Shown: positions 17,387 through 59,869 of the stretch, piece after piece
Layout: each line of letters begins with the position of its first letter
How positions within the stretch are numbered: the stretch's first letter is position 1
Origin: Oscillatoria sp. FACHB-1407
Lineage (GTDB): Bacteria; Cyanobacteriota; Cyanobacteriia; Elainellales; Elainellaceae
Direction: 5' to 3'
Assembly: GCF_014697545.1 (NCBI RefSeq)
Contig: NZ_JACJSA010000015.1
Coordinates: 124,001 to 188,000 of the forward strand
DNA length: 64,000 bases
Program-made: the position numbers and the translations under genes
The notes under the pieces: generated by a model
What the model was told of the DNA's origin: nothing
The model's database searches: none
The model's input: only the letters and a program-made list of their open reading frames with translations

Positions 17387-17495
17387 AGGGTCAATAGTCT
17401 AAAGTCCCTCTTAAAAGGGGAAGTGAGGGGTATCGTGCAGAAGATTAGCATCTCAACCGAGATCTGTGTACACGGTAACTCTTTTAAGGGAGCTA

Positions 17496-17575
17496 AGTAC
17501 AATTCGTCGTAAATAGGGGTGGGAATTCGGGGTGAAGGGGTGGAACCCCTTTCAAAACTTATTTTTTGCTGTACT
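17496..17575. repeat. GC-rich palindromic element, family C (short copy)
   Basis: Bounded by AGTAC and GTACT. Starts AGTACAATTCGTCGTAAAT, contains GGGTGGAACCCCT and ends TTATTTTTTGCTGTACT. The left half matches copies at 30680 and 57764-57999 and the right half matches 20968-21076, so it is a hybrid or internally deleted form. It is the main content of the 328-bp gap before mnmE. Confidence 0.75.
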
Positions 17576-17714
17576 AGTGTGAGTTGAAACCATTTTCATT
17601 CTTCGATTTCTTCTACACTCTGTAACGTGTTAAGTATGGGGAACGTGACTGTCGTTGGTAGTTGCAATTAGCAATCGACAATTAATTCTTTCCCGTTTTG
17701 CCATTCTGCCCCTT

Positions 17715-19807: not shown

Positions 19808-19894
19808 GCGTCTCGCTCACGTTGGGAATTTACGTATCATTTGTCATTTCAGCAACGCCTATTTCATGACCGTACAGCTTCAGTGCCCCCGTTT

Positions 19895-20146
19895 GTTAGT
19901 TCTGGAACCTCAATTGTTACTGCTGAGGTCTCAGTTATTAGTTTTGAGATCTTAGTTACTAGTTTTGAGGGCTGGTTTGTTATTCCTGAGGTCTTAGTTA
20001 CTAGTTTTGAGGACTCATTTGTTAGTTTTGAGGACTCATTTGTTAGTTTTAAGGACTCATTTGTTAGTTTTGAGGACTCGTTTGTTAGTTGTGAGGACTC
20101 GTTTATTAGTTTTGAGGACTCGTTTGTTATTCTTACGGTTGCCAAC
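19895..20146. repeat. 21-bp tandem repeat array, 11 exact-length units plus one degenerate
   Basis: Units of exactly 21 bases with consensus GTTAGTTTTGAGGACTCRTTT run from 19895 to 20125, and a twelfth diverged unit reaches 20146. The five left-hand units are much more diverged than the six on the right, as if growth occurs from the right. Because 21 is a multiple of three, both strands stay open: plus (from 19841) gives VSFEDSF repeats and minus (20175 back to 19864, GTG start) gives TNESSKL heptads. Neither has a convincing ribosome-binding site, and changes among units alter residues in both frames, so coding is unproven. There are no spacers, so it is not a CRISPR. Confidence 0.85.
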
Positions 20147-20310
20147 GTTAATTTCATGCCAAACCAACTAACCACCTCAACCAGTCAGTAAAACCACAGA
20201 CAGCCAACTAAACCCTTACGTTGATCATTTAACAAATCCATAAAATCACTCAACTCAAACCAAAAACTGATCAATAGAGTTAGAGAAGATCTTTAGCAAG
20301 GAGCATCTAC

Positions 20311-20940: not shown

Positions 20941-21253
20941 AAAATCGATCTAATTGGAATATTAGTTTACTAGTGTTGCGAACACAAAGTTCTTCAATGT
21001 AGGGGGTTTGGGGGCTTCGTCCCCAAGCAGGGGTTCCACCCCTTCACCCCTTTCAAAACTTATTTTTTGCTGTACTAGTATGCAAGCAAAGCTCATAGAA
21101 CCAGAAAAAATGCTAGACAAAATCAGCACATTTTCTGAATAGAGATTAATATGCCAGCATCCGAATCCACCTAATATCCCATTTTCCAAATAGAGTGAAA
21201 AAATCATCCTAATGGGTCTACGGGGGTATTAGGTTGCAAAAATCGATCTAATT
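20941..21253. repeat. Region bounded by a 15-bp direct repeat and holding a family C element
   Basis: AAAATCGATCTAATT occurs at 20941-20955 and again at 21239-21253. Between them is a family C palindromic element (about 20968-21076, bounded by TTACTAGTG and GTACTAGTA, with GGGGGCTTCGTCCCC and AGGGGTTCCACCCC inside) and 160 bases of A+T-rich DNA with no supported ORF. The direct repeats could mark an old insertion or deletion. The whole gap 20746-21307 has no gene. Confidence 0.6.
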
Positions 21254-30521: not shown

Positions 30522-30647
30522 TGTATAGCTGTAGCCACATTCGATAGGTAGGATAGCCGCGAATTCATTCGCCAGGCTCTTAAACCAAACTGGCGTTAGA
30601 TTAGTCCGCAATTCCAAGCGTTCTGACCAAAGCTATAAAACTGTTTT
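30522..30647. repeat. Composite dispersed repeat (family D ends with a GCCGCGAATTCATTCGCC core)
   Basis: Starts TATAGCTGTAGCCACATTCG and ends CTGACCAAAGCTATA like the family D copy near 50075-50173, but its interior is GCCGCGAATTCATTCGCC and AGGCTCTTAAACCAAACTGG, also found at 37325-37355 and 59669-59710. TATAGC occurs inverted at both outer ends. One element appears inserted in, or recombined with, another. Confidence 0.65.
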
Positions 30648-30679
30648 CCTCCAGCTTTCAAAAAGATCCCCGTTTTCTT

Positions 30680-30801
30680 AGTACAACTCGTCGTAAATAA
30701 GGGTGGGAATTTGGGGTGCAGGGGTGGAACCCCTGGCTGGGGGCGCAGCCCCCACAGCCCCCTGGTTTTATTTCCAAACCCTATCTATGAATAGCAGTAC
30801 T
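30680..30801. repeat. 122-bp palindromic element, family C
   Basis: From AGTACAACTCGTCGTAAAT to AGTACT, with the pairs AGGGGTGGAACCCCT and GGGGGCGCAGCCCCC inside, and TTTTATTTCCAAACCCTA near the right end. Inverted, nearly full copies lie at 57764-57885 and 57887-57999; shorter ones at 17496, 20968 and 59503. Non-coding; between the convergent thiO-thiG and ndhB genes. Confidence 0.85.
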
Positions 30802-36283: not shown

Positions 36284-36865
36284 CTAGCGATCGCCAAAAT
36301 GCTGTTTACAGGTCGCTAAGATAGTGTGGTCGTTGTCACTTACACTTTCCAGTGAGTGATACCCCGGAATCGTGGTAGTAGCAACGGCTGAACCTTGAGA
36401 GTTTGCTAGGGAGGCGTTGTGTTGCACGGCAACGGTATAGGGGTAACTCTCCTGGTCATAGCTGGCTGCCATGGTCAGTTGCATCTGATTGGGGCGTAAC
36501 TCTCCCTGGAAGCAGTCAAACGACGAAGAGGGCATATAAAACGCGCCCACAATGCGATCGCGATTGACCTCAAAAACCACATACGTAGAACCAATCTGCT
36601 CAGCTTCAGGCGATTGTCCATACAGATAAACACCATCAGGCATAACCGCTTGAGTTGTTGCCTCAACAGAGGACTCAGCAGATGGATGAGATAGATGATC
36701 AGGAACCTCTGCACCCTGCGCCGTGAATCGGGGCACTCCATCAACGGATACCACTAAGGCAATGGTAAAGAGCAAACCAGTTATAGGTTTTTCTAAGCGT
36801 TGCCATAGAGTACGTCTACGAGGAGATGCACAGGGGGTAGATGAGTGACGCGATTGATTGGACAT
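36284..36865 (-). CDS. Membrane-anchored envelope protein of unknown function
   Basis: 193 residues from the ATG at 36865 (MSNQSRH); an upstream ATG at 36898 is less likely. A basic N-terminus (SPRRRTLWQRLEKP) and one hydrophobic helix (ITGLLFTIALVVSVDGVP) point to a type II anchor or uncleaved signal. The rest has the conserved-looking DGVYLYGQSPEAEQIGSTYVV and VGAFYMPSSSFDCFQG blocks, which I believe belong to a cyanobacteria-specific family without known function. Two Cys remain (DCFQG, ATCKQHF) and could pair. The gene lies between repeats. Confidence 0.75.
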   Translation of the reverse strand: MSNQSRHSSTPCASPRRRTLWQRLEKPITGLLFTIALVVSVDGVPRFTAQGAEVPDHLSHPSAESSVEATTQAVMPDGVYLYGQSPEAEQIGSTYVVFEVNRDRIVGAFYMPSSSFDCFQGELRPNQMQLTMAASYDQESYPYTVAVQHNASLANSQGSAVATTTIPGYHSLESVSDNDHTILATCKQHFGDR

Positions 36866-37111
36866 AGCTGTAGTTAAGGGGCATCTGATGTCAATCAATA
36901 TCTCGTGTTTCAGGATAAAGCCTCGTGATTGAAACCCTCTTTGTCTGGTGATCTTTTCACTCTGATTGAGTGATTGAGCACAATATGCAGGAATGATTTA
37001 AATCACAATTAGCTGTAATGAGCTAACGCACACCAATGATGGTACTTACCTCACGTTTGAGATTAAGACTTTGGCAGCTTAGATCGCTGCTATCAGAGAA
37101 ACAATCAATCT

Positions 37112-37297
37112 CTGTCAGTTCAGCCCACAGCAAGGTGATTCCATATACACAAAGAAAAGTGAATTGGAGTTTAATCCCTTAAATCCCCCAACCCTGAGGG
37201 GCTTCAAACCAGTTTCCCCCCAATTTGGGGGGCTAGGGGGGCGAAGCAAAAATTCTTCACCTGTATGAAACCACCCTGCTGTCAGTTCAGCCCACAG
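37112..37297. mobile_element. 148-bp MITE-like insertion with 19-bp direct repeats
   Basis: CTGTCAGTTCAGCCCACAG occurs at 37112-37130 and again at 37279-37297. The 148 bp between begin CAAGGTGATTCCATATA and end, read in reverse complement, CAGGGTGGTTTCATACA: 14 of 17 positions agree, so the element has imperfect terminal inverted repeats. The interior carries GGGGCTTC and a CCCCCCAATTTGGGGGG palindrome. No coding. The flanking repeat is long for a target-site duplication, so the mechanism is not obvious. Distinct from other families. Confidence 0.75.
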
Positions 37298-37552
37298 GGG
37301 ATCATCGGTAGTTTGTGAATCCACTCGCCGGGCTTCCTGACCAAACTGACGTTATTTATTAGGGATTGCCCTAGTATGGAAATCATTTAGTCATCGATCG
37401 TTTAATATTGCTAACTTAAGAGATGTTTCTAAATGTAAAGTTTAAGCCTCTATATTCAGGAACATTCTTCCATGAGCTATCATTCATCATTCAATATTCA
37501 ATACAGTATTCATAACAGTCATAAAAGGCATTCAGGGGAGCGAAGAGGCTTT

Positions 37553-38926
37553 ATGGCGGAACAAGATCGGGAACGCTGTTTGAAAAGCCTGACATGGGCG
37601 ATCGAACAGTTAGAGGGTAAAGCCGACCCAAAGCAACTAGAGAAAATTGCCAATCTGATCATTCAAACCATGACCGGACCCTGGCGATTTTTTCATACCC
37701 CAGAGCATATTTTTGAAGTCGGGGGAGACGAAAATGCCGTTGAGGTATTGGCGGCTTTGTTTCACGATCTGGTTTATGTCCAAGTCGATCAGGGTGTTAG
37801 CGTCAATATCAGTTGCTATATTTCCGCCTTTGTTAAAGAAGAGTCCCATCAATTAATCATTCGTGAGCAAGCCGAACTGCGTCCCGATCGCATGTTTGAG
37901 TTGATCATGGCGATCTTTGGTTTCTCACCCGCTCAAGCCCTCTCACCTATGGCAGGGCAGAATGAGTTTTTGAGTGCAGTCATTGCAGCAAAGGCGTTGG
38001 AGCACATGTTACCCACCTCAGCGATCGCCGAGGTCGCTGCTTGCATCGAGGCAACCATTCCCTTTCGACCCAAATCGGAGGATGGAGTTAGCGCGTGCGA
38101 TCGCCTCTACGAACGTCTCCGCACCACTAACTCAACCTTTGAACTGGGTTGGAGCGATGACAAGGTGATTGAAGTCATCAAACGGGCAGTGCGAGTCGCC
38201 AATCGCGATGTAGAAAACTTCGCCTCCCCCAGTTCAGCCCACTTTCTAGACAACACCTGGAACCTTCTACCCGAAACCAACCATCATCTGGCAACCCCTA
38301 ACTCTTATACCGTTCACGGCTATCGCACCTCCCTACAAAAGATGGAAGGCTTTATGAACTTCCTCAAACCTGAAATCGTATTTCAACAATTTGGCGAGGA
38401 ACCTGCTTCAGAAACCTACCAACGATTGATCGACAATACGCGCAGAAATTTGGAAGCGGCAAAGCTCTATCTAGGTGCAAAACTGGTGTCGATCGCCATC
38501 ATTGAGGCTCTGTCGTTTCGCATCGGACGAGACATCCCCATCTCAACCATGATGGGTGAGTTACCGTCTCCCGAATACTCCACTCCCCAGTTAGAGCACT
38601 TCATTCCAGAAGTCACTCAGCATCATTCACTCAACACTGATCTAGAGCGGGAAGTCTTGGAACTTCTTGAAAAAGGGCGCAGTTCTGACTCTTCCTATGA
38701 TGTGAAAAACTCCCCCATTGCCACCTATGTTGTCAAGCTAGTCGGCTTCAGTGAAGTCAGACAATTAATTGAGCATGCCAAGGACTTCTTCAAGGGCAAC
38801 ATTACAGCGGAAGACTTTCTTGCCCTTTGTAACCCTGACGTGGTGAAAGCCGTCACTCATGGAGTAATTCAACTCTTTAGAAGTCGTGAAGTTGCGCTCT
38901 CTGAGCCTAATCGAGTGTTGGTTTAG
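37553..38926 (+). CDS. Conserved cyanobacterial protein with HD-like N-terminal region
   Basis: 457 residues from the ATG at 37553 (MAEQDRERCL), with GGGGAG and GAAGAGG upstream; an earlier frame from 37472 adds 27 unlikely residues. The N-terminal segment WRFFHTPEHIFEV...LAALFHDLVYVQ has the His...His-Asp arrangement seen in HD-domain metalloproteins, which hydrolyse phosphoesters. The later region (about 190-450) is helical and includes DRLYERLRTTNSTFELGW, RVANRDVENFASPSSAHFLD and GHI-free segments I cannot place. No transmembrane helix or signal. Function unknown; HD assignment is tentative because not all metal ligands can be confirmed by eye. Confidence 0.75.
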   Translation: MAEQDRERCLKSLTWAIEQLEGKADPKQLEKIANLIIQTMTGPWRFFHTPEHIFEVGGDENAVEVLAALFHDLVYVQVDQGVSVNISCYISAFVKEESHQLIIREQAELRPDRMFELIMAIFGFSPAQALSPMAGQNEFLSAVIAAKALEHMLPTSAIAEVAACIEATIPFRPKSEDGVSACDRLYERLRTTNSTFELGWSDDKVIEVIKRAVRVANRDVENFASPSSAHFLDNTWNLLPETNHHLATPNSYTVHGYRTSLQKMEGFMNFLKPEIVFQQFGEEPASETYQRLIDNTRRNLEAAKLYLGAKLVSIAIIEALSFRIGRDIPISTMMGELPSPEYSTPQLEHFIPEVTQHHSLNTDLEREVLELLEKGRSSDSSYDVKNSPIATYVVKLVGFSEVRQLIEHAKDFFKGNITAEDFLALCNPDVVKAVTHGVIQLFRSREVALSEPNRVLV

Positions 38927-57763: not shown

Positions 57764-57999
57764 AGTACTGTGATTCACACATAGGGTTTGGAAATAAAAC
57801 CAAGGGGGTATGGGGGCTTCGCCCCCAGTCAGGGGTTCCACCCCTGCACCCCGAATTCCCACCCCTATTTACGACGAGTTGTACTTAGTACTGTTTAGGG
57901 TTTGGAAATAAAACCAGGGGGATGTGGGGGCTGTGCCCCCAGTCAGGGGTTCCACCCCTGCACCCCAAATTTCCACCCTTATTTCCAGCGAGTTGTACT
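57764..57999. repeat. Two tandem palindromic elements, family C
   Basis: Two units, 57764-57885 and 57887-57999, follow each other in the same orientation, each bounded by AGTACT and GTACT and each with TAGGGTTTGGAAATAAAACC, a GGGGG/CCCCC pair, AGGGGTTCCACCCCTGCACC and a final GAGTTGTACT. They are inverted relative to the copy at 30680-30801. Non-coding; they fill most of the 450-bp gap before secG, so they may form hairpins at the end of the gpmI transcript. Confidence 0.85.
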
Positions 58000-58198
58000 G
58001 AGAAATACATGGACTGAGGGGCAGGTTCGGCTGAAAAACCGTGACTATGGGTAACTAATGAGTTACCTCCCCTATTGCTCTGTCTGCCCTGGAACTGTTC
58101 AATTGATATAAAATCATTGAATAATGGAAGGGAGAACCTGGGCTTCAGTTACCGAGCGTTCCATTCCCCTTGATTACTCCTTATTCGCGTTCAAAGCT

Positions 58199-59417: not shown

Positions 59418-59711
59418 TAACCCTGAATTATCGGTAGTTTAACGTGAATTCGGGATAAGAATTTCGGCAGTTATAGCCCTACGCATATGCATTAGGACAT
59501 AAGGGGGTGTGGGGGCTGCGCCCCGAGCCAGGGGTTCCACCCTTGCACCCCTTTCTAACCTTAGTGAGTACTGCTATAAAACCACAGCTATAGGAGCAAA
59601 ACCAACCTGCGTCGGTTCGTCAAATCCTGCCTTTTCCGGAGTCCGCGTCGGCGGACTTGGCTCTAGTAGCCGCGAATCTATTCGCCGGGCTCTTAAACCG
59701 AACTGACGTTA

Positions 59712-59809
59712 TACCGATTTAATGTTTGATTGTGGCAGATCAGTGGGTAGGGGCGTTTCGCGAAACGCCCCTACGGAATCATGTGCAGCGAAGCCAATTC
59801 AAATTGGTA
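59712..59809. repeat. 98-bp palindromic element, family A (copy 3)
   Basis: TACCGATTTAA to AATTGGTA, with the intact GGGCGTTTCGCGAAACGCCC centre. Differs from 1228-1325 at only a few positions, including GGTAGATCATGGG versus GGCAGATCAGTGGG and two in the right half. Confidence 0.85.
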
Positions 59810-59869
59810 TTAGTTCGTGAGGGCAGGGTCGGCTTCGGTAACTACGAATTCAGACTCGCCCTGCGAACC

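Follow-up and report, generated by a model that had tools for sequence, protein, structure and literature searches.

A cyanobacterial MITE family with ends of an ISAs1-related insertion sequence and probable 19-20 bp target-site duplications

Insertion sequences (ISs) of the ISAs1 family generate target-site duplications (TSDs) of about 8-10 bp. TSD length serves in IS classification, and unusually long TSDs, of 16-28 bp, have been described for one subgroup of the IS1202 family (PMC10132070). Cyanobacteria also carry short, non-autonomous elements with inverted ends, such as the Nezha-type MITEs named in the reference list of PMC10969869; the element described here is likened to these by description, not by sequence, and the available part of that paper gives no TSD length for them. 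Likewise, the accessible portions of PMC3281130, PMC9208149, PMC3542288, PMC9366434, PMC5756416 and PMC10969869 contain no TSD length for an element called ISAs1-family.

In this study, we analyzed a repeat-flanked unit within a 64-kb stretch of cyanobacterial DNA (the window, G000:C15:124001-188000), whose own genome was searched as 8.13 Mb in 66 contigs. The exact 19-mer CTGTCAGTTCAGCCCACAG occurs twice in the window, at 37112-37130 and 37279-37297, with 0 mismatches and starts 167 bp apart, and encloses a 148-bp unit at 37131-37278, just as an earlier note on this DNA had reported. The inverted ends of the unit match at 13 of 17 positions when read from CAAGG/CAGGG; the 14 of 17 given in that note was reproduced by including the AG/CT common to the direct repeat. 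No ORF of at least 80 aa was found inside the unit, which lies between ORFs at 36284-36898 (minus strand) and 37472-38926 (plus strand). Judged from sequence comparisons, 37131-37278 is very probably a MITE of a CAGGGTGGTTTCATA-ended ISAs1-family IS that inserted with a TSD of 19-20 bp. The features of the locus are as follows.

37112-37130, plus strand: left 19-bp copy of the probable TSD, CTGTCAGTTCAGCCCACAG; exact repeat, locus-specific at other copies
37131-37278, no strand assigned: probable non-autonomous element (MITE) of the CAGGGTGGTTTCATA family, 148 bp; own-genome matches and family ends
37131-37156, plus strand: degraded left terminal inverted repeat (CAAGGTGATTCCATATACACAAAGAA), which in inverted orientation agrees with the right end at 18/26 positions
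37176-37242, no strand assigned: interior with C-run/G-run hairpin repeat; partial matches over query 65-131
37253-37278, minus strand: intact right terminal inverted repeat (CAGGGTGGTTTCATA when read from that end); family ends
37279-37297, plus strand: right 19-bp copy of the probable TSD; exact repeat

In the window copy, the left end deviates from the family consensus at 3 of 15 positions, and the right end is an intact CAGGGTGGTTTCATA. The interior hairpin repeat also stands alone in the own genome and in other cyanobacterial genomes. Single-strand DNA folding of the element was unremarkable (z of -0.95, with 37 of 200 shuffles folding equally well), so a structured-RNA reading was set aside; a search against Rfam returned one match, far below the gathering score.

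The window contains other repeats. A 45-bp repeat lies just downstream of the element (37310-37354) and recurs at 30554-30598 (67% identical to the downstream copy) and at 59667-59711 (89% identical to the 30554 copy), where it adjoins the 59711 copy of a 100-bp dispersed repeat. The latter, located at 1227-1326 and 59711-59810 and 95% identical between the two sites, has ends ATACCGATTT/AAATTGGTAT and a GGGGCGTTTCGCGAAACGCCC hairpin, and similar sequence occurs inside an element copy, L009/L089 (loci are designated by L numbers). Repeats around GGGGTTCCACCCCTNCACCCC occur in both orientations at 17493-17581, 21001-21082, 30677-30734, 57782-58002 and 59502-59563, partly in tandem at 57782-58002, and an array with a 21-bp period occupies 19876-20148.

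The direct repeat might have arisen without transposition, by chance or segmental duplication, or might belong to a composite repeat unit. As a rough control, the 64 kb, apart from the focus and the 21-bp tandem array, was cut into 625 overlapping 400-bp windows at a step of 100, and the longest exact close repeat in each was recorded. It measured at most 12 nt in 612 of them, 14-15 nt in six and 17-24 nt in seven. These seven cases, together with the dispersed repeat just downstream at 37310-37354, speak for such an origin. A close 19-mer repeat alone is unusual, not unique, and the decisive evidence comes from the family.

A search of the own genome with the element gave 21 matches including itself, about ten of them near full length. 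The unit thus belongs to a dispersed family, whose other copies the earlier note had proposed to look for. Among ten two-ended copies, seven have a 19-20 bp direct repeat at the same boundary, each of a different sequence: three perfect (L001, L004 and L010, all 19/19), three imperfect (L005, 18/20; L008 and L009, both 16/19), and L002, whose repeat matches at 15/20 positions ungapped, with one indel visible by eye. The remaining three lack a 19-20 bp repeat (L007, 8/8; L006, 12/19; L003, none). Because the repeats are locus-specific at other copies, the 19-mer is a TSD and not part of the element, the latter being a possibility that the earlier note had raised. The element is short, non-coding, multicopy, TSD-flanked and has inverted ends, and is a MITE by these criteria. 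Another dispersed, MITE-like family was also observed, whose ends are GGCGTTGCTGA and whose direct repeat is the 8-bp AATTTTTG (G000:C4, L190 339-476; inside L007/L014). It sits inside one copy of the present element, and elsewhere the present element (L008) sits inside the GGCGTTGCTGA family.

The family extends beyond this genome. Among 388 genomes of the class, themselves a sample of a larger group, 20 contained the pattern GCAGGGTGGTTTCATAYA, own genome included. The pattern was present in at least 119 stretches of the GTDB contig collection; the 80 listed were all cyanobacterial by record title, which does not imply absence beyond cyanobacteria, and all 119 loci entered the scripts. The loci come from targeted searches and are not a census. 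Copies were accepted if both ends had at most three mismatches and one end at most one, which gave 84 two-ended, flank-distinct copies; three nested pairs were dropped and 81 copies counted. L221, with ends CAGGGTGGTTTCAAG and flanks that match at 16/18 positions by eye, was left out by the end criteria.

For each of these 81 copies, the two flanks were compared with each other outward from the element boundary, using 200 random re-pairings of the right flanks as control. Flank identity peaked at 19-20 bp (0.613 for 19 bp, 0.546 for 20 bp), and the re-paired flanks gave 0.340 and 0.344, respectively, with a maximum of 0.378. An anchored direct repeat (passing a score of 5) was present in 59/81 copies; the re-pairings gave 2.9 on average and never more than 10. 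The best length was 19 bp in 29 of these 59, 20 bp in 21, 18 bp in four, and 8, 12, 13, 17 and 21 bp in one each, i.e., it was 17-21 bp at 56 of the 81 copies, and 32 of the 59 repeats were perfect over at least 17 bp. No recognisable repeat was found in 22/81 copies (L003, L006, L147 and 19 others), and the three best at 8, 12 or 13 bp also fall outside the main range. The idea that the flanks are always duplicated over 19 bp therefore holds for most copies and fails for the 22 of 81 and, in the own genome, for three of ten.

Uninterrupted relatives of several targets were identified. The target of L008 is located inside another repeat family; L190, a copy of that repeat in the same genome that has no insertion, aligns with it at 130/145 positions and carries a 17/19 version of the L008 19-mer once. 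For L149, the same genome offers L172 as an uninterrupted counterpart of the target (167/194 aligned), in which the identical 19-mer (19/19) is present once. L292 compared with L333 (97/107) and L328 compared with L296 (71/80) give a similar picture. These empty sites are all paralogous or from other records, not orthologous, and an L081 alignment, being to its own contig, was uninformative. A search of 40 genomes, the own one included, with the left flank of the window copy recovered its own locus and nothing in the 39 related genomes. Empty sites of the kind that the earlier note had suggested seeking were found for other copies, with the repeat present once; for the window copy, no orthologous one was recovered in these 39 genomes. 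Against a chance or segmental origin of the repeat stand the distinct 19-20 bp repeats that border other copies, the loss of the match when flanks are randomly re-paired, and the single repeat carried by uninterrupted target relatives. We regard an origin without transposition as extremely improbable. Of the two alternatives offered in the earlier note, an unusual mode of insertion stands in substance, with 19-20 bp duplicated, and duplication of a short segment is not supported, given the different repeats elsewhere and the single repeat at uninterrupted relatives.

The preferred targets are imperfect palindromes of the form CC[CYY...RRG]GG, in which CCC/GGG half-sites mark the two points of cutting. 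In the 19-bp TSD set (n=29), position 1 is C in 25/29 and position 19 is G in 28/29; outside the TSD, the two preceding bases are C in 26 and 26/29, and the two following bases are G in 25 and 26/29. Self-complementarity of this set about its centre was 0.401, versus 0.247 (maximum 0.297) for random windows of the same loci, and symmetry fell at every tested shift of 1-6 bp. The 20-bp set (n=21) has C at position 1 in 18/21 and G at position 20 in 20/21; its symmetry was weaker, since the value of 0.336 is barely above the highest control (0.317) and a shift of the centre by one base gives 0.338. The target of the window copy fits this consensus partly, having CT...AG followed by GGG, but TCT instead of CCC before it.

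Full-length elements provide a candidate source of transposase. ISs of 1168-1176 bp (about 1170 bp) with the MITE's ends are predicted to encode ISAs1-family transposases. The protein of L147 (1171 bp) matched the ISAs1 transposase with E=5.6e-52 and 176.9 bits (cut-off 70) and contains Pfam DDE_Tnp_1. With the same model, NF033564, and cut-off 70, the ORFs of L223, a Scytonema-type IS, scored 89.2 and 111.3, and L312 scored 129. Seven identical 1174-bp ISs occupy seven different sites, at least five of them in Scytonema sp. NIES-4073, and have repeats of 19/19 (L236, L273, L314, L331), 20/20 (L223, L284) and 20/21 (L232). In total, 9 of 11 two-ended elements longer than 1100 bp have an 18-21 bp repeat, i.e., these seven plus L220 (15/18) and L312 (20/20); the two full-length ISs without a repeat are L144 and L147.

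The transposase gene varies in its organization. In L147, L420 and L426 it is a single ORF. In several cyanobacterial ISAs1-like ISs, it is broken at an A8 tract that follows the second catalytic-D motif (motif assigned by eye) and takes the form of two overlapping ORFs (-1 frame), e.g., L223:2929-3905 and L208:911-2070. This arrangement suggests frameshifting or transcriptional slippage. Compared with L147, the frame of L223 changes once more near residue 332, which makes the autonomy of L223 uncertain.

Because of the TSD length, which agrees with that of the 16-28 bp subgroup (PMC10132070), movement of the element by an IS1202-family transposase was considered first. The transposase family led us to reject it: the ISs that share the ends of the element are predicted to encode ISAs1-family proteins. 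ISNCY model NF033594, which we take to cover the IS1202 group, had no match in G000 and G009 and four below-cut-off matches in G059. The ends here begin with CAGGG, whereas ISAjo2-like ISs have 5'-TGT (PMC10132070). The likeness to IS1202 is thus one of length only, with a different transposase family and different ends, and the available text of PMC10132070 gives no target sequence for its long-TSD subgroup. We consider that an IS1202-type enzyme has next to no chance of being the one that moved the element.

The own genome itself yielded no full-length IS with these ends and no match to NF033564, and a search with the L147 protein returned one chance-like match (E=0.02, 24% identity over 70 aa, three stops). 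For these reasons the window family looks orphaned of its transposase; an IS lost in assembly gaps is possible. With a degraded left end and no such transposase detected in its genome, the window copy is probably a relic. The same lack of an ISAs1 transposase match, and MITE interiors that vary between hosts (e.g., L081 compared with L001), would agree with a different transposase that accepts these ends having moved the element, in which case the full-length ISs elsewhere are not its real parent. However, MITEs and full-length ISs with the same ends and the same TSD length both occur in the target sets described above, and we judge such a separate enzyme very unlikely. An ISAs1-family parent remains the preferred reading.

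We then compared this group with other ISAs1 elements by the same method. Canonical ISAs1 copies (14 two-ended, ends near CAGGGCAAACGCAT) gave a sharp 10-bp peak of 0.643 (control mean 0.307, maximum 0.450), and 8 of 14 had clear repeats of 9 or 10 bp. Canonical ends were also present in 9 of the 20 genomes with long-TSD ends. The present group resembles the ISAs1 family (NF033564) in the above-cut-off transposases of its full-length relatives, in DDE_Tnp_1 and in CAGGG ends like those of canonical copies. In contrast, its TSD is 19-20 bp against 10 bp in canonical copies, its transposases are about 25% identical to the canonical ones, and its target is a CCC/GGG palindrome. With a TSD outside the 8-10 bp of ISAs1, it is a divergent branch of that family and not a typical member.

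Closer relatives are cyanobacterial elements with ends near CAGGGCTRTTTCATTC, which comprise sister and near-sister groups and are likewise ISAs1-family relatives, but have TSDs mostly of 9-12 bp. A repeat was found in 29 of 41 two-ended copies, with best lengths of 11 bp (nine copies), 10 bp (eight), 9 bp (six), 12 bp (four) and 8 bp (one), and one of 40 bp that lies in a repeat array and becomes 11 bp when length is limited to 30. Like the long-TSD elements, the sister subgroup inserts between C-run and G-run half-sites: by eye, a C-run before and a G-run after were present in 14/14 targets of 11-12 bp, which come from three genomes (G172, G326, G322) and at least two of which share one target, and both runs in 0/14 targets of 9-10 bp. 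The sister group with 11-12 bp TSDs corresponds to the CAGGGCTGTTTCATTC transposase elements. In a tree of stitched tblastn alignments, built on fragmentary and partly decayed genes, the 19-20 bp clade (support 0.99) was sister to the clade with 11-12 bp TSD elements (0.88; it includes L207, which has no clear repeat), with joint support of 1.00. L208 and the canonical elements fell outside both clades.

In the open-licence PMC literature, the end sequence CAGGGTGGTTTCATA occurred in no paper, and an ISAs1-related group with 19-20 bp TSDs was not found among the matches listed (ISfinder was outside the scope of this search). Long TSDs are known in the IS1202 subgroup; an ISAs1-related branch with TSDs of 19-20 bp appears to be new.

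The long TSD most likely results from ordinary DDE transposition with an unusually wide stagger. A DDE transposase would act in trans on the MITE and join its 3' ends to opposite target strands at points separated by 19-20 bp (about two helical turns), beside the CCC/GGG half-sites. Gap filling by repair would then produce the long duplication. Going from about 10-12 bp to 19-20 bp adds roughly one helical turn, so that the joining points would stay on the same face of the target. On balance, we lean towards the view that, within one transposase family, sister clades with a common CCC/GGG palindromic target differ in strand-transfer spacing, which changed from about one helical turn (9-12 bp) to about two (19-20 bp).

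TSD length reflects the geometry of the transposition complex. If the spacing shifted in this way, the long-TSD complex would grip two half-sites located two turns apart on the same DNA face, and the 9-10, 11-12 and 19-20 bp groups would form a natural series for finding what sets the stagger of a DDE transposase. MITE finders restricted to short TSDs would be expected to miss such families. Overall, sister enzymes with TSDs of 19-20 bp versus 9-12 bp make the structural basis of stagger testable.
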